64,000 bases of DNA, from assembly GCA_947177175.1 (NCBI GenBank), contig CAMWTK010000002.1, positions 1 to 64,000 of the forward strand, in the 5' to 3' direction. Source of the DNA: an uncultured Treponema sp. GTDB lineage: Bacteria; Spirochaetota; Spirochaetia; Treponematales; Treponemataceae. Positions 703-32,490 of the stretch are shown here, piece by piece (the stretch's first letter is position 1; each line of letters opens with the position of its first letter). Position numbers and translations under genes: made by a program. Below the pieces are notes generated by a model. That model had not been told where the DNA came from, ran no database searches, and saw only the letters and a list, made by a program, of their open reading frames with translations.

Positions 703-1409
703 ATGGAATTGCACAAAAAGTACCGAAATGAGCACAAGTATGTTTCTCCCGGCTGTCTGCTCGCCGTTCAGCAAGCCCGCGTCGCTTCCGTGATGCGGCT
801 TGACCGCTTCGCTAATGGGGGGGGTATTCTATCAGGAGCGTCTATTTTGACGACCTGTACGACACCTGCTATTTTGAAAACGAAGACGGCACCGACCCCC
901 GCGAGAAATTCCGCATACGCATTTACAACTGCTCGGACAAGCGCATTTCACTTGAGCTGAAACAAAAGGAGCGGGGAATGTGCCGGAAAATTTCCTGCCC
1001 GATTTCGCGTGCCGTCTGCGAGCAGATATTGGGCGGTATCATTCCCGCATTCGACGGCGGCACTCCGTATCTCCTGAAAAAACTGATCATGCAGATGCAC
1101 ATGCGCGCGCTCAGGCCGGTGGTGATTGTCGCCTACGAGCGCGTGCCGTTCGTCTATGAGCAAGGAAACGTGCGCGTCACGTTCGACCGCAATCTCAGAA
1201 GTTCGGACAAAATAGAACGCTTCTTTGACGGAAACGCGCCGTTCCGCCCGGTGCTTCCCATTGGAACGGACATGATGGAAGTGAAATTCGACGGATTCCT
1301 GCCGGACTTCATAAACGAGGCGTTGCAGACAAGCGCGCTGCAATGGACTTCGTTCTCAAAATATTATCTTTGCAGAAAATACCGTATGAGAGGTGGCTAT
1401 GACTTTTAA
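703..1409 (+). pseudogene. VTC-domain (polyphosphate polymerase-like) protein, frameshifted at a G8 tract
   Basis: Frame from 703 gives RNEHKYVSPGCL; after the G tract at 817-824 the family sequence YSIRSVYFDDLYDTCYFENEDGTDPREKFRIRIYNC...LELKQKERG continues in another frame to 1409. Confidence 0.8.
817..824 (+). repeat. G8 homopolymer inside the VTC coding region
   Basis: aatGGGGGGGGtat read directly; the reading frame breaks exactly here. Confidence 0.95.
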
Positions 1410-2073
1410 AGACATTTTCAAGAAATCCTTTATCCAAGGATTCACCCGCTATGACGCGACTCCTGAGAACATCATCGTCGTGTTCCTGATTTCGGCGTTC
1501 TTCGCGCTGTACATTTTCTTTGCGTACCGGCTGCTCACGCGCAAGACGTTCTACCAAAAGTCGTTCAACATCGCGCTCCCCGCGCTCGTGCTGATTACGG
1601 CGGCGGTAATCCTTACAATTCAGTCGAGCGTCGTCATTTCGCTCGGTATGGTCGGCGCGCTTTCTATCGTCCGCTTCCGCACGGCAGTCAAAGACCCGAT
1701 GGACTTGGTGTTCCTGTTCTGGGCGATTTCGACCGGGATTATCTGCGGCGCAGGTCTCGCGCAGATTTCGTGTGTCCTCGCGTTCGTGCTGACAATCGCG
1801 CTGTTCGTGTTTGACCGGATTCCGGTTGCCCGCGCGCCGAAAATCCTCATGGTAAGCGGGGAAGGATACGCGCTTGAAGAAGAAATCATGGCGGCGGTGC
1901 GCAGGCACTGCAAGGTGTTCGCCGTAAAAAGCCGCACCCTTGCGGACAACAAAATCAACCTCGTCATTGAAGTGCGCGCGAAGGAAGACGCTCCGCTCGT
2001 GCAGGAAATCGCCGCGCTGAGTGCGGTCACTTCTTCGTCATTGCTTGCTCACGACGGGGAAGTTACGTACTAG
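1399..2073 (+). CDS. DUF4956 membrane protein
   Basis: Motif SLGMVGALSIVRFRTAVKDPMDLVFLFWAISTGI; overlaps the end of the VTC gene and precedes cotH. Confidence 0.85.
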   Translation: MTFKDIFKKSFIQGFTRYDATPENIIVVFLISAFFALYIFFAYRLLTRKTFYQKSFNIALPALVLITAAVILTIQSSVVISLGMVGALSIVRFRTAVKDPMDLVFLFWAISTGIICGAGLAQISCVLAFVLTIALFVFDRIPVARAPKILMVSGEGYALEEEIMAAVRRHCKVFAVKSRTLADNKINLVIEVRAKEDAPLVQEIAALSAVTSSSLLAHDGEVTY

Positions 2074-2074
2074 C

Positions 2075-3394
2075 ATGTTCATGCGAAGATATTCCGTCTT
2101 TTTCAGCCTGTTCCTGCTGCTGCTTTCGCTTGGCGCGGTATTCGCGTTCCTGACATCGGCAAAACGGAGCGTCACGGTGGAACAGTGCGAAAAGCTTGGC
2201 TTTCCCGTCCTCCTGATTGAGACCGACAAGAACAGCCCGATAAAGCGGAAAGACAAATACGTGAAGGCTTCGTATCGTTTTGGCGAATTTTCGGGGCGGT
2301 GCAAAATCCGCGGGCACGGGAATTCCACCTGGAAAACGCCGCTCACGCAGAAAAAGCCGTACCTCCTGAAGCTGGACGAGCCGCGTCCCCTTGCCGGCTT
2401 TCCGTCCTCGCAGAAATGGATTCTCATGGCAAACGCCCTCGACCGCTCAATGCTCCGCAACTATTATGCCGAGCACCTCGCGCACACGGTGTGGGACAGG
2501 ATGCCGTGGACGCCTTCTTCGGAATTCATCACACTTTTCGTGAACGGAAAATATCTTGGCCTATACGGGCTGACGGAAAAAATCGACATCGCGGAAAACC
2601 GCATTTCGTTCGCGGGCGAAGGCTTCCTCGCGGAAATCGACAGTCACGACGGGCGGCCGCACAGTTTCCGGGGAATTGACGGGCTTGATTTTCATATCCG
2701 CCAGCCGGAATCTTCCGAGGAGAACTACGCCCGCTGGGCGGAAAAAATCCTTGAGCTTGAACATATCCTGTATTCGGACGACGGCATCGGCTACAGGCGG
2801 CATTTCGACGAGGCATCTTTCGTGGACTGGTACCTGCTGGCAGAATTCTCCAAGAACTACGACGCGAAATTTTACAACTCGGTGTTCATGACGTATGACT
2901 ACGGCAAGCAGAAACTTTTTATGGGTCCGGCGTGGGATCATGACATCGCATTCGGGAACACGACAAAAGGCAGCACCGGCTGTGCCGGCGGCTACACTTC
3001 CCTGCTCAGCGACAGCGTGTGGATTTCGCACTTCCATTCTTTTGACCCCGAGGAGAATTCGACCGCCGCAAAAGACGCGGAGGGATTTCTCATCAATCAG
3101 GATTATTGGTACAACAAACTGTTCGGCGACGATCAGTTCGTGCGCGCCGTAAAGGAGCGGTACCGGGAAACGCGCCCCGCCCTAGAAGAGTCGCTCGTCT
3201 GGCTAAAAGCGCAGGCAGATCGCCTGACCGAAGCCGCCGAGCTGAACGATTCCGTCTGGCACATCATCGGAAGTTCCGTATGGCCGCGCGCACCCGGTTA
3301 CCGCAACCGAAAAACATATCAGAGCGAAACCGACTACCTAATACAGTGGTGCGAAAACCGCATGCAATGGCTTGACACCGTGTTTTTGGAGTAA
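2075..3394 (+). CDS. CotH kinase family protein
   Basis: CotH-like sequence: RGHGNSTW, KPYLLKLDEPRPLAGFPSSQKWILMANALDRSMLRNYYAEHL, GPAWDHDIAFGN. Confidence 0.85.
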   Translation: MFMRRYSVFFSLFLLLLSLGAVFAFLTSAKRSVTVEQCEKLGFPVLLIETDKNSPIKRKDKYVKASYRFGEFSGRCKIRGHGNSTWKTPLTQKKPYLLKLDEPRPLAGFPSSQKWILMANALDRSMLRNYYAEHLAHTVWDRMPWTPSSEFITLFVNGKYLGLYGLTEKIDIAENRISFAGEGFLAEIDSHDGRPHSFRGIDGLDFHIRQPESSEENYARWAEKILELEHILYSDDGIGYRRHFDEASFVDWYLLAEFSKNYDAKFYNSVFMTYDYGKQKLFMGPAWDHDIAFGNTTKGSTGCAGGYTSLLSDSVWISHFHSFDPEENSTAAKDAEGFLINQDYWYNKLFGDDQFVRAVKERYRETRPALEESLVWLKAQADRLTEAAELNDSVWHIIGSSVWPRAPGYRNRKTYQSETDYLIQWCENRMQWLDTVFLE

Positions 3395-3441: not shown

Positions 3442-5310
<1,869 letters not shown>

Positions 5311-6435
5311 TTACGCTTCCTGCAAGAAATTCATAAACGCTTCTTTGTTTTCGATTGGCGTTGTTTTGGGACGACCCAAATCTTTTCTCGCGCCTTTCCG
5401 CACGATTACTTCGATAAAAGTCAACTTGTTTTCCAAATTCAAAAGCGAATTCTCAAGTTCGTCCAACGTCTCGACTTTTTTTACGCTTTCATAGCCGCAG
5501 GATTTTGCGATTCCGCACAAGTCGATTTTTCGCGCTACGGTCGGCTGGCCGCCAACGCTGTCATGCGCGCCGTTGTTCAGCACGATGTGGACAAGGTTTT
5601 TCGGAGCGCGAGTGCCAATCGTCGCAAGGCCGCCCATTTGCATAATAGTCGCCCCGTCGCCGTCGATGCAGAAAATTTTCCGCTCCGGCTTTTGGATCGC
5701 AATTGCAAGGGCGATTTGGCTTGCGTGTCCCATCGAGCCGACCGTAAGGAAGTCCTTTTCGTGCTTCATTCCATGCTTTTCGCGCAGCTCGTACAGTTCC
5801 CGGCTCGCCATTCCCGTTGTTGAAACGAAAGCCGCCTTTTTGTCCGCAAGCAGCATGATTTTTTCAATCGCCTCCTCGCGGCTCATGTCACCGGAAACAG
5901 TTTCGTTATTCTTCAAGGTGTAGGCGGCAAACGTGTCTTTTCGGATTACGAAAGCGTAGGGCGCGGAATTCTTGTGTATGCAGGAATACGCTTCGTCAAA
6001 CTGCTTTTCCAAATCTTCGGGATTCGCGCTCAAAATTTGGTACGGCACTTTCATTGCGTCGAGCAAATCGCAGGTGACTTTTCCTTGCTTCACATGCTGC
6101 GGCTCATCGTGCACACCCGGCTCGCCGCGCCATCCAATCAAAATCAGCGTCGGCACGGAATAAACATCGGGGTCTGCGAGCGAAAGAAGCGGATTTACCA
6201 TGTTGCCTTCGCCGGAATTCTGCATATAGATAAGCGGAATTTTTCCGGTGGAAAAATGGTAGCCAGCCGCCAAAGCCGTTGCGCTGCCTTCGTTTGCCGA
6301 AATGATGTGCTTTTCGGCCGGCGCATTGTCTGTTATGTACGCGCAAAAATTCTTCAATAAAGAATCCGGCACGCCCGCAAAGAAATCCGTTCCATGCGCC
6401 AAAGCCAAGTCGTAAAAATATTTTGGTTCTATCAT
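5311..6435 (-). CDS. aepY: phosphonopyruvate decarboxylase
   Basis: ThDP enzyme: GVPDSLLKNF N-terminus, GDGATIMQMGGLATIG...VLNNGAHDSVGGQPT; adjacent to aepX and pntC-aepZ. Confidence 0.92.
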   Translation of the reverse strand: MIEPKYFYDLALAHGTDFFAGVPDSLLKNFCAYITDNAPAEKHIISANEGSATALAAGYHFSTGKIPLIYMQNSGEGNMVNPLLSLADPDVYSVPTLILIGWRGEPGVHDEPQHVKQGKVTCDLLDAMKVPYQILSANPEDLEKQFDEAYSCIHKNSAPYAFVIRKDTFAAYTLKNNETVSGDMSREEAIEKIMLLADKKAAFVSTTGMASRELYELREKHGMKHEKDFLTVGSMGHASQIALAIAIQKPERKIFCIDGDGATIMQMGGLATIGTRAPKNLVHIVLNNGAHDSVGGQPTVARKIDLCGIAKSCGYESVKKVETLDELENSLLNLENKLTFIEVIVRKGARKDLGRPKTTPIENKEAFMNFLQEA

Positions 6436-6471
6436 AAATTTTTCCTTTTTGCCAAAAGTAAAACGGCAATT

Positions 6472-7770
6472 TCATTTTGTTCCCGGTATCAATTCCAGGA
6501 TCTGCTTTATCGGCATGCACAAATCGTTCACTTCCAAACTGCGCTCGGCCTTTAAAATTTCTTCGGCGCATTTTTGCATCGCGGGATAGCTTGCGCGGAG
6601 CATGTGGTTCGCATAAATGATGATGCTCGCGCCCCAGCTTGCAAGCTCGGTTTCCGTGAACTGATTATATGTCGTCGGCACAAGCACGATGGGAACGTTC
6701 TTGTATTCTGCGCGGAATTTTTGGCAGAATTCCTTTATGTCTTCGCCGCTTTTGTCTTTCGAGTGAATCATAACGCCGTCCGCGCCAGCCTTTACCGCAG
6801 CGAACGCCTTTTTTATCGCCTCGTCAACGCTGTAGCCCGCGATTATCTCTTCGATTCGGGCGATAATCATAAAGTCTTTCGTGACCTGCGCCTTTTTTCC
6901 CGCGCTGATTTTCTCGCAGAATTCCTCTTCCGTCGCAAGGACTTGTTTTGCTTCTGTTCCGAAAAGCGAATTCTTTTTCAATCCTTTTTTGTCTTCAATG
7001 ATTACTGCGCTCACGCCGTTGCGCTCAAGCGTCCTCACGGTAAAGACAAAATGCTCAGGAATGTCACCCGTGTCGCCGTCATAAATAATGGGCTTCGAGG
7101 TGCATTCCAAAATATCGGTGAGCGACTGCATTCTCGTCGTCAAATCGACCGCCTCAATGTCAGGCTTTCCCTTGCTCGTCGAGTCCGTAAGCGAAGACGA
7201 CCACATTCCGTCAAAAGCGTGCAGCCCGTCTTCTTTCATAACCTGCGTGTTTTCGACAATCAGGCCGCTCAAGCCCGAATGCGCTTCCATAATCCTGACG
7301 ATGGGCTTTGCGGCAAGCAGCCGTCGGAGCGTCGCGCGGCGAATGTCGGGCGTAGTGCCGATGGACTTTGCGTTGTCGGACAAAGCCGTTGAATTTATCC
7401 CTTGCGTGTAGGGAATTTCCACGACTTCACCACCCCATTCTTTCATCGTCTCAAAAACTTCGTCGCGGATTTTTGAAAGATAGTTTGACTTCCAGTCATC
7501 GCCGTGAATTATGTAGTCGGGCTTGTATTTTTTCAAGTTGGGAACATAGCTCCAGTCTTCTTGAGGAACAACACGCGAAACGCCTTTTATGTTTTCAATG
7601 ACTTTCTCGCGCTGCTCGTATGTTAGATAGGGAAGACGCTTGTGGGAAACTATCGCGCTGTCCGTCAAAAGACCAATCGTGAGTTCTCCGAGTTTTGCGC
7701 CCTCGTTTATTATGTTGATGATTCCAGGATGAATTATATCTCCCGTAATTCCAAGGTATACCGTTTTCAT
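6472..7770 (-). CDS. aepX: phosphoenolpyruvate mutase with N-terminal cytidylyltransferase-like domain
   Basis: PEP mutase motif EDK(X)5NS seen as EDKKGLKKNS; TagD-like N-terminus MKTVYLGITGDIIHPGIINI; start 7770 has a GGAGGA ribosome site. Confidence 0.92.
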   Translation of the reverse strand: MKTVYLGITGDIIHPGIINIINEGAKLGELTIGLLTDSAIVSHKRLPYLTYEQREKVIENIKGVSRVVPQEDWSYVPNLKKYKPDYIIHGDDWKSNYLSKIRDEVFETMKEWGGEVVEIPYTQGINSTALSDNAKSIGTTPDIRRATLRRLLAAKPIVRIMEAHSGLSGLIVENTQVMKEDGLHAFDGMWSSSLTDSTSKGKPDIEAVDLTTRMQSLTDILECTSKPIIYDGDTGDIPEHFVFTVRTLERNGVSAVIIEDKKGLKKNSLFGTEAKQVLATEEEFCEKISAGKKAQVTKDFMIIARIEEIIAGYSVDEAIKKAFAAVKAGADGVMIHSKDKSGEDIKEFCQKFRAEYKNVPIVLVPTTYNQFTETELASWGASIIIYANHMLRASYPAMQKCAEEILKAERSLEVNDLCMPIKQILELIPGTK

Positions 7771-7783
7771 GTCGTCCTCCCAT

Positions 7784-7824
7784 AAAAAGTCAAGAAGAAA
7801 GTTGGAACTTTCGATTGACTTTTT
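7784..7824 (-). terminator. terminator/attenuator-like hairpin just upstream of aepX
   Basis: AAAAAGTCAA...TTGACTTTTT outer stem, GAAAGTT/AACTTTC inner stem, T5 tail, 13 nt before the aepX start. Confidence 0.55.
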
Positions 7825-7898
7825 ACGCACATTCGCAACGCAGTGCTTCGCAACGAGCGCATCGCGCGAAGTTTCAAGCGGAATGTGCATTAAATATG

Positions 7899-7919
7899 CA
7901 AGTTTCCAACGGAAACTTG
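7899..7919. repeat. perfect hairpin in the aepX leader
   Basis: CAAGTTTCC-AAC-GGAAACTTG. Confidence 0.7.
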
Positions 7920-7921
7920 TC

Positions 7922-7962
7922 ATGATAAAAGTGCCGCGCTATTTGTGCGGTGCTTTTATCAT
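7922..7962. repeat. 16-bp inverted repeat downstream of the TagB/F-like gene
   Basis: ATGATAAAAGTGCCGC / GCGGTGCTTTTATCAT; two non-identical positions form G-U wobbles in plus-strand RNA. Confidence 0.75.
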
Positions 7963-9240: not shown

Positions 9241-11925
9241 CTATTTGATATCGGTATATGGCTTCCAGTTTTCGTTTACGAAAATGTCGTCCTTGACGGT
9301 TACCCATTCGTCTTTTTCAGCAGAAAACTGCGTATTTTTCTTTATTCGCGTGCTCTCCGGCGGATGCGTCAATATTTTTACGAATTCTGTTTTATCAGCT
9401 GGAGCAAGCGGAGCGCCCGTAAAAGGATTTTTCGCGTCTGGAATAATCCCTTCAACTGCGAGCGCAGGGGTGTCTGCGTTTGTCATAAATTCCATGCTCG
9501 TCATCACCCCCCCCCGTTTATCAAAATCTTTCACCAAAAGTGATGCAACATATTTTTCCTTTCCGTAAGAATCAAAAACAGGCAGGTCATTCACAAGTTC
9601 CGGCACACGAACAAATTGTCCGTGATCACTTACGATTATGATGCGCGTGTTGTCATAAACGTCAATTTTTTTAAGATAATCAAAGAACCGCGCAAAAGTT
9701 TTAAACGCTGACATCATAGAAGTAAAAAAAGGATTCCATGCGAATTCACTTTTGCCGAAAACCGTGACGGGCTTGTCAGACGGAACATAATCCGGAGCAT
9801 CCGACAAAAGCGCCTCATGAGCCATTTCATTGTCAATCATAATGAAGCTGTCGTTCGGCGCGTCCGTGTCGGTCAAAGCAGGAAGATAGTCAAATTCGGA
9901 ATAATTGTCCACAAAACGCGGAAATCCATCATAAGTAATAACCGATGTCCAATACTCACCGTGATAAACTGCGCGTCTAAAAATCGGCGGAACAATCTTG
10001 AACAGGCTGAACCAAATGAGATTTCTTTTGATATCATGCGCGAGATACAAGCCTTTTTCCACCCCATGTTCGCGATACCAAAGGTCGGAATACGCGCCGC
10101 GTGTCTCAACCCTATTAATGTATTCATACCCGTCATACATCCGCTCTATTGGGTATTCAAGAAAATTCTGATACGGCAACCATGTAATCGTCACGTCGAA
10201 GCCAGCCTCATGGAAAAGCACGGGCATTGTGAGCATTGCCTGATTTTGTTTTTCTTGAAGCGTCTGATCCGTCCGCGCATTGATTTCCCACGGCGTGAAA
10301 CTGTACCCTCCGAAAAGTCCCGGAGTTCCAGTCATCGTCCGCCCGGCGAGCGAAACCGTATTTTTGTAGAAAACAAAGCCGTCGAATTGTTCTTTCAAAT
10401 TTGGATCTTCGTCAAAACATCGCTCCACGAACGGCATAAAAAAAGCGTCCATCATAAAGACTATGACATTTCTGCCGTCCTTTGAAAGATGATACACAGG
10501 GGTTATCTCCGTCTTTTCTTGCGGCGGAGTCATCTTTGCGAACGCGCCCGCAATGCTTGCAGAATTCCGAATGCCGACCGTAAGCAAAGCAAATGACATA
10601 ATGGCACACACCGAAGCAACCACAGACGGCCGCAGTTTCATCAATAGAATTATAACGACAAAAATCGCGACAAGCAGAATGACGTTCGCCACGAATGAAA
10701 GCAAAGTCGGCATAAAAAATTGAGCGTTCATAAAAATGCATTCCGGCAGAATCGGACCATAGTCCCCGGAAAAAGCGAACGTGTTCAACAATGCGCACAT
10801 CGCCACAATTGGAAAGCCCACCGCAAACACTTTCTTCACTTTCGCAGAAAAAAGCGCGTAAAAGCACAGCGGCCATAGGACAAAGCAGCCAACCGCCTGA
10901 TAGAATGTGTAGCGCAAAAATACAAACGGCGACGCGTAATTTTCCACATAGCAGTAATTCTCCGGCTCACTTTCCATCAGCATTGACGGAATCACCAAGC
11001 CCGCAAGGAGCGCGAGCGTCACGGCGGAAAGCATGAATAACGCAAATCGCAGCCGCTTGTTTCCGTCAAGGACAGTAAAGCTTTTTTCAAGGAACGACGA
11101 AACTTTTTTTGCAAAAAAAGGCAACGTAGGCAAAACGATTGCCATTGCCACGACGAGCGCACGGAACGCCGTCTTTCGTCCCGAAAGCACCGTGAACGCC
11201 GCAATCAAGCCGAGCACACTGACCGCACACAACAGCGCAAAAATCACCCGCTTCGGATTTTTCAGTTTGTAGAAAATGTTCTTCACGAGCGAAAGGACAT
11301 TGTTCATCGTCCAGTACACGACAAGTCCCGCCGGAGAATTGTACAGGAGAACGAGGAATACCGCCGCGCAACCGAAAATCTGGACTTTTTCGCCCGCGCC
11401 GTGCCCTTTCGAATAAATCGCGCCCGAAACGCAGTTGATGACCGTCATCAAAATCGGAAGCACGTTCACCGCGAGCGAGCCGATTTTCAACGCGCCGTCC
11501 GGGCTTCCGAAGTCGTTGATGAAAAGAAAGCGATACCCGCGAAGCGGCTCAAGGTGCGAAAGAAACGTGTACGCCGCAATGAAAAACGGAATCTGTATCA
11601 GCAAACTGAACGACGAACGCAATGCCATCAGCGGATGGTAATGGTTCTGCCGATAGAACGTCGTCAAAATCATGTATTGCTCGTCGCCCTTGAACGTCGC
11701 CTTGATGCGCTTTACGCCGGGGCGGAGCAAGTCCTGTTTCCGACGCTCTTCTTCCTGCCACTTCTCGGCGACCATGTACAGCGGGAGCGTACAGATTGTC
11801 ACGACAAAACTCAAGCCCACGACCGCAATGCCGATGTTGCCTGTAATTTTGTCAAACAAGACATAGAAGAATTCTAGAATGTTGACAAGCGGTGTAATTA
11901 TCATCGCAAAAAGTATAGACCCCAT
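9241..11925 (-). CDS. YidC/Oxa1-like domain fused to alkaline-phosphatase/sulfatase-superfamily domain (paralog 1)
   Basis: N-term GDEQYMILTTFYRQNHYHPLMALRSSFSLLIQIPFFIAAYTFLSHL...LLYNSPAGLVVYWTMNNVLSLVKNIFYK; C-term NVIVFMMDAFFMPFVE...TRIIIVSDHGQF. Confidence 0.85.
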   Translation of the reverse strand: MGSILFAMIITPLVNILEFFYVLFDKITGNIGIAVVGLSFVVTICTLPLYMVAEKWQEEERRKQDLLRPGVKRIKATFKGDEQYMILTTFYRQNHYHPLMALRSSFSLLIQIPFFIAAYTFLSHLEPLRGYRFLFINDFGSPDGALKIGSLAVNVLPILMTVINCVSGAIYSKGHGAGEKVQIFGCAAVFLVLLYNSPAGLVVYWTMNNVLSLVKNIFYKLKNPKRVIFALLCAVSVLGLIAAFTVLSGRKTAFRALVVAMAIVLPTLPFFAKKVSSFLEKSFTVLDGNKRLRFALFMLSAVTLALLAGLVIPSMLMESEPENYCYVENYASPFVFLRYTFYQAVGCFVLWPLCFYALFSAKVKKVFAVGFPIVAMCALLNTFAFSGDYGPILPECIFMNAQFFMPTLLSFVANVILLVAIFVVIILLMKLRPSVVASVCAIMSFALLTVGIRNSASIAGAFAKMTPPQEKTEITPVYHLSKDGRNVIVFMMDAFFMPFVERCFDEDPNLKEQFDGFVFYKNTVSLAGRTMTGTPGLFGGYSFTPWEINARTDQTLQEKQNQAMLTMPVLFHEAGFDVTITWLPYQNFLEYPIERMYDGYEYINRVETRGAYSDLWYREHGVEKGLYLAHDIKRNLIWFSLFKIVPPIFRRAVYHGEYWTSVITYDGFPRFVDNYSEFDYLPALTDTDAPNDSFIMIDNEMAHEALLSDAPDYVPSDKPVTVFGKSEFAWNPFFTSMMSAFKTFARFFDYLKKIDVYDNTRIIIVSDHGQFVRVPELVNDLPVFDSYGKEKYVASLLVKDFDKRGGVMTSMEFMTNADTPALAVEGIIPDAKNPFTGAPLAPADKTEFVKILTHPPESTRIKKNTQFSAEKDEWVTVKDDIFVNENWKPYTDIK
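9507..9515 (-). repeat. G9 tract (C9 on plus strand) inside the fusion-protein ORF
   Basis: catcaCCCCCCCCCgttta; encodes part of DKRGGVMTSM on the minus strand. Confidence 0.95.
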
Positions 11926-12062
11926 TTTCTTCCTCGTTTCTAATAAAACTTTATATCAATCCTGTACCATGACAACATTCGAATGCCACCACATCTTTTT
12001 ATAATACCATAAAATTGAAAAAAGAAACATACCCATTAAATCGATATACAAAAACTGCCGCA

Positions 12063-14777
12063 TCATTCCACTTCCTCCACAATTTCTTGTTTCCAGTTTT
12101 CCGATTCAAAAATGCTTTCGCTCACGCGATACCAGTCTGTTGGCGGAGACGTGAATACATACTTGCTTTTCGTGTGATACGGCATGAAAAGGTTCGACGT
12201 ATTGATGAGTGCGCCGTCCGATTTTGACGCGTTCGTCACCGCATCTCCCGTGAACGGATTTTCCGGGCTTTCGACGAATCCTTCCAAAAGCATCGCAGGG
12301 CCGTCCGCGTTCGTCATGAATGCATCGCTTGTCGTAAAGTCGCCCGTATCTCCGAAATCCTTGAACATGAAAAGCGGATGGTATCTTCCCGGCCTGAGCA
12401 TTTCAAATTTTTCGTCCCACTGAAAGTCTTTTTCCCGCGCGGAACTGCCGTGGTCGGAAACGACGAGGATTCGGGTGTTGTCATACGCGCCGTTCTCTTT
12501 CAAATAATCGAAGAATTCCGCAAGGCGATGCATGACTCCCGCCATGGACGAGTACGCTTCATCGCCCGCGTATTCGGAATTGCCGTAATTGGTCACTTCC
12601 GCAGCCGGAACGTAATCCGGGGCTTGCAACATGAAACTTGTGTGCGTCGCATTGTTCGTAAAGCTCAAGAAATAATTTTCCGTCTCGCAGTCAAAGTCGG
12701 TAAGCCGGGGAAGATATTCCATCACGGAATAATTTGAAAGATACTTGTTCGCGTCCTCGACACCCGTGTCCGCAGACCAATACAGCCCCCGCTTGTAGAT
12801 GACCGGGCGTAAAACCACGGGCGCGGCGCGGAACATCGCGTACCAAAGGATATTGCGCTTGAGCACCGCGCTCGCCACCGTGAACGCCGCGCCGTCGTCG
12901 CGATGCTCATCATACCACAACGAAAGGTACGCGTTCTCCGTAACGTGCGCACTGATCTTCGGGTACGGCTTGAAAATCGAAATGTCAGGAATCCAGCTGT
13001 AGTTCGCCCAGGACGCGTCGCTTGACTCGGCGGAAAATCCTTCCGCCTGCTCCGTAAAAATCCGCGGCAAAAGCAAAATCGCCTCGTTGTGCTTTTCCAC
13101 GAGCGGAACATCGCTGCGTCTGTTCATCTCAAGCGGCGTGTATCCGTAGCCGCCGTGGACGGGCGGCGCGCCGATGAGCGTGTGCGAGTTGTATGAAACC
13201 GTGTTCTTGTAAAGCGTGAAGCCCGAAAACGAATCTTTCAGGCGCGGCGTTTCCGCAAGAATTGGCTCGACAAAACGGTTCTGCGCGCGGTCGAGGAAAA
13301 TCAGCACAACGTTTTTTCCCGTCCGCGTAAAATGGAAAATCGGTTCGATTGAATCAGCCTTTGTTCCTGCCGAAACGCGCAGATATTCGCGGTAGCCTGC
13401 CGAAATCTTGCGCCCCTGCACGAATGAAAGCATGACAAGCGACGCGCATGCAATTCCCATCACCGCGCAAGCCCCGCGCGAAAGCCCCAGCCGTATGACG
13501 GCAAGCACGGCGACAAAAATCGCGGCAATCACCGCAAGGTTCGCGACAACGTATGCCGCAGGAGACACCACATCCGAACGCTCCGTAAAAACCAAAAGCG
13601 TCGAAAGATAGCCGTAGTCGCCCTGAAAAAGAAACGCGTTCGCGAACGCAGTCAACGAAAGGAACAAAAACAGCGCGGAAAGAATCGTCTGCACGCGCTC
13701 CTTGAAAAGGAAGAACACGAGCGACGGCCAAAGAAAGCACAGCCCGAACGCCTGCACGAACGTGTTCCGCACGAAAAATCGCGGGTCGGGATAATTGTCA
13801 ATCCCCGAAAATTCGACCGGCGACGACGCGATGAGCAGCGACGGAATGACAAGCCCGACGAGCAACGTGAACGCGCCCGCTCCCGCAAAGAAAAGCCCCG
13901 TCCGAAGCCGCCTGTTGTCGCGCAACGGAAAAAGCAGCCTGTCCACCGCGGCATTCATCGCCCGCACAATCAGCGGAGATGCAATGATGACGAGGAACGC
14001 CACGATCATAAGACTTTTCGTCATAAAATTGAAATGCCGCGTAAAAATCACCCACACGATTGCGGCAGCGCACCCAAGCGCGCAGATACCGTAAAAGACT
14101 TTGAGCGGACTCTTGAATTTATAGAAAATGTTCTTTACGAGCGAAAAGACGTTGTTCATCGTCCAGTAGACGACAAGCCCCGCCGGAGAATTGTAGAGCA
14201 GCACCACGAAAAGCAGCGCGAGCAGATACACCTGCAATTTTTCGCGGAGCGGAAGCCCTTTCGTGTAAATCGCGCCCGAGACGCAGTTTATCGCCGTCAT
14301 CAAAAGCGGTAGCACGTTCACCGTAAATCCGCCTATCCTGAACAGCGCGTCGGGCTTTCCCAAATCCGCTATGAAAAGGAAACTGTGCCCATGCAAAGCC
14401 GCCATGTGCGAAAGACACGCATACGCCGCCGTAAAAAACGGAATCTGAATGAGGATTCCGAACGCGGATCGCAGCTGCATGATCGGGTGGTAATGGTTCT
14501 GGCGGTAGTACGTGGAAAGAATCATGTACTGCTCGTCGCCCTTGAAGCATTTCTTTATCCTGTCCGTCTGCGCCTTCATCTTGAGCTGGAGGTCGCGCTC
14601 CTCGTCCTCGAACTGCTTCGCCACCGCGTACAGCGGAAGCGTGAGCAAACTCACGGCAAGGCTCACGCCCACGAGCGCAAGCCCCGTGCTGTCCATAATC
14701 TTGTCGCTCAAAACGAACGCAAACTCAATTATCTGAGTGAGCGGATAAATGACCGCCGTAAAGAAAAGGTTTCCCAT
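12063..14777 (-). CDS. YidC/Oxa1-like domain fused to alkaline-phosphatase/sulfatase-superfamily domain (paralog 2)
   Basis: GDEQYMILSTYYRQNHYHPIMQLRSAFGILIQIPFFTAAYACLSHM; LLYNSPAGLVVYWTMNNVFSLVKNIFYK; NVVLIFLDRAQNRFVEPIL; ILVVSDHGSS; start at MGNLFFT aligns with paralog 1. Confidence 0.85.
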   Translation of the reverse strand: MGNLFFTAVIYPLTQIIEFAFVLSDKIMDSTGLALVGVSLAVSLLTLPLYAVAKQFEDEERDLQLKMKAQTDRIKKCFKGDEQYMILSTYYRQNHYHPIMQLRSAFGILIQIPFFTAAYACLSHMAALHGHSFLFIADLGKPDALFRIGGFTVNVLPLLMTAINCVSGAIYTKGLPLREKLQVYLLALLFVVLLYNSPAGLVVYWTMNNVFSLVKNIFYKFKSPLKVFYGICALGCAAAIVWVIFTRHFNFMTKSLMIVAFLVIIASPLIVRAMNAAVDRLLFPLRDNRRLRTGLFFAGAGAFTLLVGLVIPSLLIASSPVEFSGIDNYPDPRFFVRNTFVQAFGLCFLWPSLVFFLFKERVQTILSALFLFLSLTAFANAFLFQGDYGYLSTLLVFTERSDVVSPAAYVVANLAVIAAIFVAVLAVIRLGLSRGACAVMGIACASLVMLSFVQGRKISAGYREYLRVSAGTKADSIEPIFHFTRTGKNVVLIFLDRAQNRFVEPILAETPRLKDSFSGFTLYKNTVSYNSHTLIGAPPVHGGYGYTPLEMNRRSDVPLVEKHNEAILLLPRIFTEQAEGFSAESSDASWANYSWIPDISIFKPYPKISAHVTENAYLSLWYDEHRDDGAAFTVASAVLKRNILWYAMFRAAPVVLRPVIYKRGLYWSADTGVEDANKYLSNYSVMEYLPRLTDFDCETENYFLSFTNNATHTSFMLQAPDYVPAAEVTNYGNSEYAGDEAYSSMAGVMHRLAEFFDYLKENGAYDNTRILVVSDHGSSAREKDFQWDEKFEMLRPGRYHPLFMFKDFGDTGDFTTSDAFMTNADGPAMLLEGFVESPENPFTGDAVTNASKSDGALINTSNLFMPYHTKSKYVFTSPPTDWYRVSESIFESENWKQEIVEEVE

Positions 14778-30690: not shown

Positions 30691-30705
30691 TGTGTGGAGA
30701 AAACT

Positions 30706-32490
30706 ATGGAAAAAAATACCCTGTGGGCAATCATTCTTTCAACCGTCGTGCTGGTCGTCTTTTTTGGCATTCAGACAAAATTCATGCCCAAACAGACCGA
30801 ACAGCCTGTTCCGACGCAAATCGCAGAATCTGCCGAGGACGCGACGATTGAGCAACCGGCAGAGAATCAGGCGGCGACACCGGCAGAAATGCTTCCCTTC
30901 TTGCAGGACGCGCCGGAATCTGGAAGCGAGCAGACGTTCACGATTACGACTGACAAGGTAAAGGTAACGTTCAGCAACCGTGGCGGCGACGTCATCGGCT
31001 ATGAGCTGCTGGAGCATTTGGACACCGATACGGGAAAAGGCGTGGAAATGGCGGACAATATTTCTGCCAGCAACCGTGCCTTTGCCGTTTCTTTGGGCGG
31101 GCCGAATGTTTTGCCCATCAGCACGATTTTTTCCGCGCATCAAATTGACGATTATACGATTGGTTTTTCGTACACCGTGGAAAAAATGGTGGACGGCGTA
31201 CTGCAAAAAGATTTTACGATTGCGAAAAAGTATTCGTTCAAGCCCGGCGACTATACGTTCCGCTTGGACATTACGATTGACGGAGAGCCTGCGTTTGCGG
31301 GATTGAATTTTGACGGCGTTTCTTATTCGCTCAGAACGTCGCCGCAGGTCGGGCCGCATTACAACCGCAAAGTTGACCGCTACGACGTGCGCCAGTTCAT
31401 GTCGTATAGCGGCGAAAAATATAAAAAAATCCTGCTCGGCGAAAATCAGCAGAAAACGTTCGACAAGCACTGGGTGTGGGCGGGCATTGCCGGAAAATAC
31501 TTTGAGATTTTGGTCATTCCCGAGGACAGCGCGAAAATGTCGGCTTCCGCAGAGTATTCCACGCTCATTGAGCACAACAATTATGCCAACGCACAGGCAC
31601 GGTTCAGCCGTCTGCCGGTGGGCGCGGGGCAGACGACCGACACCTATTATGTGTACGTCGGGCCGCGGAGCGAAAAGGAGCTGGCAAAATACGGTACGGC
31701 AGAACACAACGTCTGGGGGCTGAGCGGGCTTAAACTGGGCGAAAGCCTCGACACGTCCGGCTTTTTCAGCTGGCTGGAAGTCATCTTGAAATTCCTGCTC
31801 GAGCAGATTTACCGGGTCGTCAGAAACTGGGGCGTGGCGATTATCGTACTGACCGCGCTGCTTAAATTCGCGATGTTCCCGCTGACAAAAAAAACCGCGC
31901 TCGGCACGGCAAAAATGCAGCGGATTCAGCCGCAGATGCAGGCGTTGCAGACAAAATACAAGGACAACCCGCAGAAAATGCAGCAGGAAACGATGAAACT
32001 GTATAAAGAAATCGGCTACAATCCCATGGCGGGCTGTCTGCCAATGCTGTTCACGTTCGTCATTTTGTACGCGATGTACCGCCTGTTCAACAATTATTTT
32101 GAATTCCGCGGGGCAATGTTCATTCCGGGGTGGATTCCTGACTTGTCGAAAGGCGACAGCGTGGCGACGCTTTCGTTCAACCTGCCGTTCAACTTTGGAA
32201 ACCAGGTGCGCCTGTTGCCGATAATCTACGTCGTCTCGCAGATTCTGTTCAGCAAAATCACGCAGAACGGCGGCACGGCAAGCACGAACCAAACGCAGAT
32301 GAAAATGATGATGTACGGCATGCCGCTGATTTTCTTCTTTATTTTCTACAATGCGCCCGCAGGTCTGCTTATTTACTGGATCGTGAGCAACGTCATTCAG
32401 CTGGCACAGCAGCTGGTCATCAACCACACGATACGGAACAGACAGCCGATAGTCGTCGCAAAAACCAAAAACGGCAAAAAACAGAAATAA
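30706..32490 (+). CDS. yidC: membrane protein insertase YidC (housekeeping copy)
   Basis: Periplasmic P1 domain plus KMQRIQPQMQALQTKYKDNPQKMQQETMKLYKEIGYNPMAGCLPML. Confidence 0.96.
   Translation: MEKNTLWAIILSTVVLVVFFGIQTKFMPKQTEQPVPTQIAESAEDATIEQPAENQAATPAEMLPFLQDAPESGSEQTFTITTDKVKVTFSNRGGDVIGYELLEHLDTDTGKGVEMADNISASNRAFAVSLGGPNVLPISTIFSAHQIDDYTIGFSYTVEKMVDGVLQKDFTIAKKYSFKPGDYTFRLDITIDGEPAFAGLNFDGVSYSLRTSPQVGPHYNRKVDRYDVRQFMSYSGEKYKKILLGENQQKTFDKHWVWAGIAGKYFEILVIPEDSAKMSASAEYSTLIEHNNYANAQARFSRLPVGAGQTTDTYYVYVGPRSEKELAKYGTAEHNVWGLSGLKLGESLDTSGFFSWLEVILKFLLEQIYRVVRNWGVAIIVLTALLKFAMFPLTKKTALGTAKMQRIQPQMQALQTKYKDNPQKMQQETMKLYKEIGYNPMAGCLPMLFTFVILYAMYRLFNNYFEFRGAMFIPGWIPDLSKGDSVATLSFNLPFNFGNQVRLLPIIYVVSQILFSKITQNGGTASTNQTQMKMMMYGMPLIFFFIFYNAPAGLLIYWIVSNVIQLAQQLVINHTIRNRQPIVVAKTKNGKKQK

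Follow-up and report, generated by a model that had tools for sequence, protein, structure and literature searches.

A widespread family of YidC-like domains fused to putative headgroup transferases, encoded with a PF04464 partner in Spirochaetota and Clostridia

What is an insertase fold doing on the same polypeptide as an extracytoplasmic enzyme? The question is raised by a window of 64,000 nucleotides from an uncultured Treponema sp. (GenBank assembly GCA_947177175.1, contig CAMWTK010000002.1, positions 1 to 64,000), in which two tandem genes each encode a YidC/Oxa1-like domain followed by a domain of the alkaline phosphatase (AP) superfamily. A first-pass annotation had described the products as paralogous fusions and proposed that they form a self-contained machine for export and modification. 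We find that the architecture (a YidC fold, extra membrane helices and an AP fold) is borne out by profile searches, structure prediction and fold comparison, and that the proposed function is borne out in part. The YidC-AP proteins are a widespread family in Spirochaetota and Clostridia, unnamed in the open-licence papers that we searched; each of their parts is known in kind, and the combination stands a substantial chance of being new in mechanism.

Architecture and catalytic residues of the fused proteins

Both open reading frames (ORFs) lie full-length and in tandem on the minus strand, their products (P0001 and P0002) are ∼40% identical from end to end, and every motif quoted in the first-pass annotation occurs in both. 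The longest ORF for P0002 (12063–14879) encodes 938 residues, and an ATG at 14777 is the start that aligns with that of P0001. The Pfam searches that had been proposed as a check matched both families in both proteins, 60KD_IMP at residues 32–219 of P0001 (E = 1.5e-22) and 66–253 of P0002 (E = 3.6e-21), and Sulfatase in the two C-terminal halves (E = 7e-5 and E = 5e-9, respectively). A profile comparison with E. coli YidC using hhalign covered the entire conserved core (E = 2e-13). Against TIGR03592, P0001 scores 85.6 bits, above the cut-off of 84.3, and P0002 just below it at 82.8; because P0001 passes, proteins of this kind may be labelled ‘membrane protein insertase YidC’ by automatic annotation, which would hide the transferase.

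The structure of full-length P0001 (894 residues) was predicted with AlphaFold2 (AF2) from a 73-member alignment, yielding a confident model (mean pLDDT 91.1, pTM 0.86); residues 284–894 modelled alone gave a pLDDT of 93.6 and a pTM of 0.91. The predicted helices and the charge pattern divide the protein into a YidC core (residues 1–220), two linker transmembrane (TM) helices (residues 224–282), five further TM helices (residues 290–463), and an AP domain located outside (residues 484–894). Foldseek searches returned AP-superfamily transferases with five TM helices (5TM), led by PbgA (6xlp and 6v8q) and including MCR-1 (9nww), EptA (5fgn) and LtaS/LtaP. The alignments to PbgA, MCR-1 and EptA span 635–683 columns and take in both the TM bundle and the AP domain (residues 284–894). 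The extra TM segments noted in the first-pass annotation are present, and include a five-TM bundle of the type proper to the AP transferase itself, in the arrangement seen in PbgA, EptA and LtaS; judging from these alignments, the extra helices plausibly correspond to the membrane portion that 5TM-AP transferases ordinarily have.

The AP domain contains a set of residues (N486, D493, T530, H703, D767, H768, K799, D800 and D818) that are invariant in 73 of 73 relatives. D767 and H768 fall in the SDHG block that aligns with LtaS, and the ligand sets described for LtaS, EptA and YejM have the same composition as that of YidC-AP (PMC7576196). The nucleophile position is occupied by the invariant T530, within the motif T-x-x-G-x-P. 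Comparison with E. coli EptA using hhalign aligned precisely the nucleophile block (NTVSLAGRTMTGTP versus NTASCGTATAVSVP; E = 0.004 for this single comparison), in which T530 pairs with the second Thr of the EptA sequence CGTAT. A formylglycine-type sulfatase motif (C/S-x-P-x-R) is absent from the AP domain, which is therefore not a sulfatase but a Thr-type transferase or phosphatase; given also the invariant Thr and the 5TM bundle, we rejected a reading of the protein as a sulfatase/phosphodiesterase hydrolase. The earlier designation, an extracytoplasmic transferase of the AP/sulfatase superfamily, thus stands as regards the transferase, which fits better, but not the sulfatase.

Residue conservation and the predicted fold together argue strongly that YidC-AP is a metal-dependent phospho- or phosphono-headgroup transferase of the 5TM-AP class, with a Thr nucleophile. 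As in EptA/MCR-1, LtaS and PbgA/YejM, a five-TM bundle is followed by an extracytoplasmic AP domain with Asp/His ligands and that same nucleophile. Unlike those enzymes, to which its sequence identity is low (10–16%), YidC-AP has ∼280 extra N-terminal residues (the YidC core and the two linker helices), conserved KDF and FMTNAD blocks, and an obligate partner of family PF04464.

The PF04464 partner and the activated headgroup

The gene for this partner adjoins the two fusions; its product scores 33 bits against PF04464 (curated cut-off 22.1), with partial coverage of the profile (186–297 of 367). Across 394 genomes of the phylum Spirochaetota, with the fusion called present at E ≤ 1e-40 (plain YidC proteins score ∼1e-20 to 1e-27), 103 encode both proteins, three the fusion only, two the partner only, and 286 neither (Fisher p = 1e-88); the two thus agree in presence or absence in 389 of the 394. 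Within the genus itself, the sets of genomes that encode the fusion and the partner are identical (44 of 49). The partner is located no more than three genes away for 131 of 178 distinct fusions, a one-directional count, since those loci were fetched for holding a fusion; the genome-wide co-occurrence is not so biased. The same partner also adjoins the fusion in Clostridia. A functional partnership between YidC-AP and the PF04464 enzyme is thus very likely, and the phyletic inseparability of the two does not support the self-contained machine that had been envisaged.

The partner carries the sequence YIDPGTG near its N-terminus, ahead of a single TM helix. The motif is found in 104 of 104 partner copies, is unique to the partner in this genome, and (as YIDPGTGSM) shows a pairwise identity of 95%, versus ∼52% for the remainder (36–64% along the remaining chain past the first four residues). 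In five partner members (among them those of loci L074, L082, L086 and L093) a signal peptide ends directly before YIDPGTG. In most partners the signal peptide has been lost, leaving a short N-terminal tail; for 90 of the 104 copies, the last Met is at most 14 residues from the motif. Because those five signal peptides end where they do and lysines come after the TM helix, the motif should be extracytoplasmic and the catalytic domain inside. That an extracytoplasmic motif should be better conserved than the catalytic domain suggests that it makes a specific contact, with YidC-AP as the obvious candidate.

The locus also encodes a gene set for 2-aminoethylphosphonate (AEP), comprising phosphoenolpyruvate (PEP) mutase, phosphonopyruvate decarboxylase, AEP transaminase and PntC, with TIGR02320, TIGR03297 and TIGR03301 all matched above their cut-offs. 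PntC of T. denticola makes CMP-AEP; the study that established this left the transferase that uses CMP-AEP unidentified, and described the later steps of surface phosphonate pathways, beyond the formation of AEP, as enigmatic (Rice et al. 2019, PMC6697681). Judging from its enzymes, the present genome very probably makes CMP-AEP. It encodes no LicD, and its only two CDP-alcohol phosphatidyltransferases, one of them adjoining a phosphatidylserine (PS) decarboxylase, look like the housekeeping phosphatidylglycerol and PS enzymes; this makes the PF04464 partner the best candidate for using CMP-AEP, with the AP transferase as the leading candidate for the step outside. AEP is probably the headgroup in this locus. 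The two-gene unit of YidC-AP and partner is thus a testable candidate, in Spirochaetota and Clostridia, for the transfer that follows CMP-AEP, and may be the missing step that attaches phosphonates to the surfaces of the many treponemes and some gut Clostridia that carry it. As in Lic/Pnt decoration (LicC/PntC with LicD), a small, CTP-activated headgroup would be bound for the cell surface, but with PF04464 and YidC-AP in the place of LicD. The AEP operon (3442–7923, minus strand) contains two different cytidylyltransferase-type domains, one (PF01467) joined to PEP mutase and one (LicC-like) joined to AEP transaminase.

The modules found near the pair are interchangeable: AEP genes, a LicC-like cytidylyltransferase fused to a CobD-like pyridoxal phosphate (PLP) enzyme, one fused to a HisC-like enzyme, or a lone cytidylyltransferase-like protein. 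Fusions of LicC-like and CobD-like or HisC-like PLP domains, predicted from family profiles to supply a CDP-ethanolamine-like donor, stand beside the pair at L039 (1996–4056), L042 (3729–5558) and relatives; some bear an N-terminal extension, and we found no description of them in the literature searched. A strict specificity for AEP was rejected, as most fusion-bearing genomes have no PEP mutase and have other CDP-X modules instead. In 26 of the 45 genomes that encode both PEP mutase and the partner, the two are at most 6 kb apart. On trees of the same 48 loci, module type changes nine times for the partner and 19 times for YidC-AP, with a shuffled mean of 25.9 for each (both trees were made quickly, and the presence of related species inflates the clustering, a bias common to both). 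Module type tracks the partner tree far better, and therefore the partner would contact the activated headgroup and YidC-AP would act later; headgroup specificity appears to be carried by the partner and not by YidC-AP.

Compared to the PF04464 glycerophosphotransferases (TagB/TagF/TarL), the partner matches the catalytic half of the family, but it does so weakly, has an invariant YIDPGTG ahead of its TM anchor, and is encoded near AEP or CobD-like modules, not CDP-glycerol genes. This gene context indicates a CMP-AEP or CDP-ethanolamine-like donor, not CDP-glycerol. Membership of the TagB/TagF family, the fold matches to LtaS/LtaP, and the occurrence of the pair in monoderm Clostridia would all suit an AP domain that works as LtaS does, building a chain of headgroup-phosphate (a teichoic-acid-like glycolipid) out of units that the partner provides. 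We consider such a polymerase highly improbable, since AEP and ethanolamine-like headgroups lack the second hydroxyl that a growing chain requires, and headgroups with an amine usually serve as decorations.

The YidC-like domain and a possible transmembrane relay

One study describes a positive charge in the hydrophilic groove of YidC proteins as strictly conserved, and shows that a neutral residue at position 366 leaves E. coli YidC functional provided that position 517 is aromatic (PMC8920935). The residue of the fusions that corresponds to R366 of E. coli is Thr, Ser or Asn throughout, both among 85 relatives (T41/S25/N19) and in the 73-member alignment (T29/S26/N18), without a positive charge in any of them; the housekeeping YidC of the window retains Lys. 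The residue at the position of 517 (W205) is Trp in 73 of 73. We considered, and dropped, the argument that loss of the groove charge means loss of insertase activity, given that a neutral residue is tolerated with an aromatic residue at 517, which is Trp here (PMC8920935). The proposal of a machine that exports and modifies proteins finds no support, although loss of the groove charge alone need not abolish insertion. The fusions share with YidC/Oxa1/Alb3 insertases the complete conserved core, the TM5 motif, the aromatic residue at 517 and the cytoplasmic helical region, and differ from them in the groove residue, in being joined to a transferase, and in coexisting with a housekeeping YidC.

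These observations bear on the possibility that the fused domain is a dedicated insertase that inserts or assembles membrane proteins, chiefly the TM helix of the partner with its short N-terminal tail, the AP domain acting to modify what has been inserted or a nearby glycolipid. The YidC core is recognizable along its full length, the tail predicted for the partner is short and N-out, a type of segment that YidC inserts, and the invariant Trp would be of the kind that allows a neutral groove residue to work in E. coli YidC. We nevertheless judge this role improbable, in view of the uniform replacement of a residue reported to be strictly conserved, the presence of a separate and complete yidC in the genome, and the five partners with signal peptides of their own, which Sec can place.

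Lipids are scrambled in vitro by E. coli YidC in purified form, and in simulation by every member of the Oxa1 family tested (PMC10491306). It is on this account that we propose a lipid conduit as one role for the YidC domain; no dedicated biological use of YidC lipid scrambling was found in the literature searched, and YidC-AP offers a natural test of whether the YidC fold can be repurposed for moving lipids.

The explanation towards which we lean overall is a transmembrane relay, in which the partner would use a CMP-activated headgroup inside and YidC-AP would pass it on, outside, to an acceptor in the envelope. PEP mutase, phosphonopyruvate decarboxylase and the PntC-AEP transaminase, as identified by homology, would produce CMP-AEP, and other enzymes in relatives would produce a CDP-ethanolamine-like donor. 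The anchored PF04464 enzyme, with its catalytic domain in the cytosol, would then move the headgroup from the nucleotide to a membrane lipid or glycolipid. The groove of the YidC fold would pass the loaded lipid to the outer leaflet, or clamp the TM helix of the partner and so keep the inside and outside enzymes together, or both. Finally, the AP domain would transfer the headgroup, by way of a covalent Thr530 intermediate, to a surface glycan or glycolipid, a class of chemistry that is strongly indicated. That the relay is lipid-linked we hold to be nearly an even chance; by analogy with YidC proteins, a conduit role for the YidC domain is a tentative suggestion, and a role as partner clamp equally so. 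No less tentatively, an insertase fold without the reported groove charge may have been rebuilt as dedicated lipid conduit and clamp at once, physically coupling the cytosolic transferase (via its invariant YIDPGTG N-terminus) to the AP transferase. A single complex, a new kind of machine for decorating the surface, would then take the headgroup from CMP-AEP or CDP-ethanolamine on the inside and deliver it to a glycan on the outside.

Several points weigh against this relay. The case for a conduit or a clamp is one of analogy and conservation. The YidC match rests on profiles, and YidC is absent from the top 50 Foldseek structural hits; the Foldseek TM-scores are modest (TMt of 0.32–0.35 versus whole proteins and ∼0.5–0.6 versus AP domains), probably due to differing relative orientations of the domains. 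Characterized PF04464 enzymes act on lipid-linked sugars, not simple lipids, which makes the second step a conjecture. The AEP genes could adjoin the pair for some other reason, and PEP mutase is missing from many of the genomes that encode the pair. Lastly, the genome encodes a PS synthase and PS decarboxylase, so that phosphatidylethanolamine could be the donor, as it is for EptA.

This last point opens the way to an EptA-like alternative, in which the AP domain takes phosphoethanolamine from ordinary phosphatidylethanolamine to decorate a surface glycolipid, the YidC domain is a structural relic, and the PF04464 enzyme works separately in the cytosol, where it attaches AEP or other groups to the same glycan. 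The PS synthase and decarboxylase, the pair-bearing genomes without PEP mutase, the presence of EptA and MCR-1 among the closest folds, and the weakness with which the YidC-AP tree tracks headgroup type would all agree with it. We regard it as unlikely but not far-fetched, because the near-perfect co-occurrence with the partner (103 versus five discordant genomes) points to a sequential or physical partnership, and the same pair is present in Clostridia.

Distribution and genomic surroundings

The fusion was found in 106 of the 394 genomes of the phylum, and a scan of a genome collection returned at least 575 related stretches, which rules out chance or an assembly artefact. Among the matches listed, many are from Clostridia (Ruminococcaceae, Lachnospiraceae, Butyrivibrio and Saccharofermentans). 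Among treponemes, the laboratory strain T. bryantii B25 encodes the fusion and its partner (L115). A mobile or viral origin was rejected, as a plasmid search gave no full-length match to the fusion and viral contigs gave none; the viral Foldseek hits were generic sulfatases. The open-licence papers searched contained no description of a YidC-sulfatase or YidC-transferase fusion or of a DPGTG motif, nor any of the fusion with its obligate partner or of a link to surface phosphonates.

Two outlying loci have a PF04464 partner with YIDPGTG, next to separate YidC and AP genes as a split pair (L082, 17218–19900) and next to a much diverged fusion (L093, 11285–13837); together they suggest an older and wider family. 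A treponeme-like YidC-AP gene at L138 (7998–10703) is on a contig labelled Tannerella sp., a label that is probably a binning error and not a sign of transfer.

The genome assembly, which is 90% complete, contains exactly three 60KD_IMP genes (the two fusions and the housekeeping yidC, which is separate and located at 30.7 kb as the first-pass annotation had it), two genes with a Sulfatase fold (both of them the fusions), and one PF04464 gene, the neighbour of the fusions. Six consecutive minus-strand genes, separated by gaps of 12–137 bases, span positions 14777 down to 3442 (Table 1).

Table 1. Coordinates of the fusions, their partner and associated genes in the window
Feature	Position	Strand	Basis or remark
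YidC-AP fusion 1 (P0001, 894 aa)	9241–11925	−	Pfam 60KD_IMP and Sulfatase; AF2 model
YidC/Oxa1-like core, fusion 1 (residues 1–220)	11266–11925	−	Groove position T43 (R/K in canonical YidC); W205 at position of E. coli Y517
Five-TM bundle, fusion 1 (residues 285–463), predicted N-in	10537–11073	−	AF2 helices, charge pattern, Foldseek alignments
Predicted extracytoplasmic AP-superfamily domain, fusion 1 (residues 484–894)	9244–10476	−	Invariant catalytic residues, fold matches
YidC-AP fusion 2 (P0002), paralogue of fusion 1	12063–14777	−	Catalytic residues kept
Partner, PF04464 (CDP-glycerol glycerophosphotransferase-like) enzyme, 418 aa	7972–9228	−	Pfam E = 4e-8
YIDPGTG motif, partner N-terminus, ahead of single TM helix	9196–9216	−	Invariant, unique in genome
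Cytidylyltransferase-like and PEP mutase fusion (C–P bond formation)	6472–7923	−	PF01467 and PF13714; TIGR02320 390.8 bits, above cut-off
Phosphonopyruvate decarboxylase	5311–6435	−	TIGR03297 510.7 bits, above cut-off
PntC (CTP:2-aminoethylphosphonate cytidylyltransferase)-AEP transaminase fusion, predicted to make CMP-AEP	3442–5289	−	Homologous along its full length to T. denticola PntC 6pd1, E = 6.5e-257
Housekeeping yidC with YidC_periplas	30694–32490	+	Distinct from both fusions

Adjoining the operon on the plus strand (978–3394) is a series of genes for a VTC domain protein, a DUF4956 protein and a CotH kinase. Genes of all three neighbour clusters recur near the YidC-AP genes of relatives (for example L037 and L038), and could have the same envelope polymer as a possible substrate.
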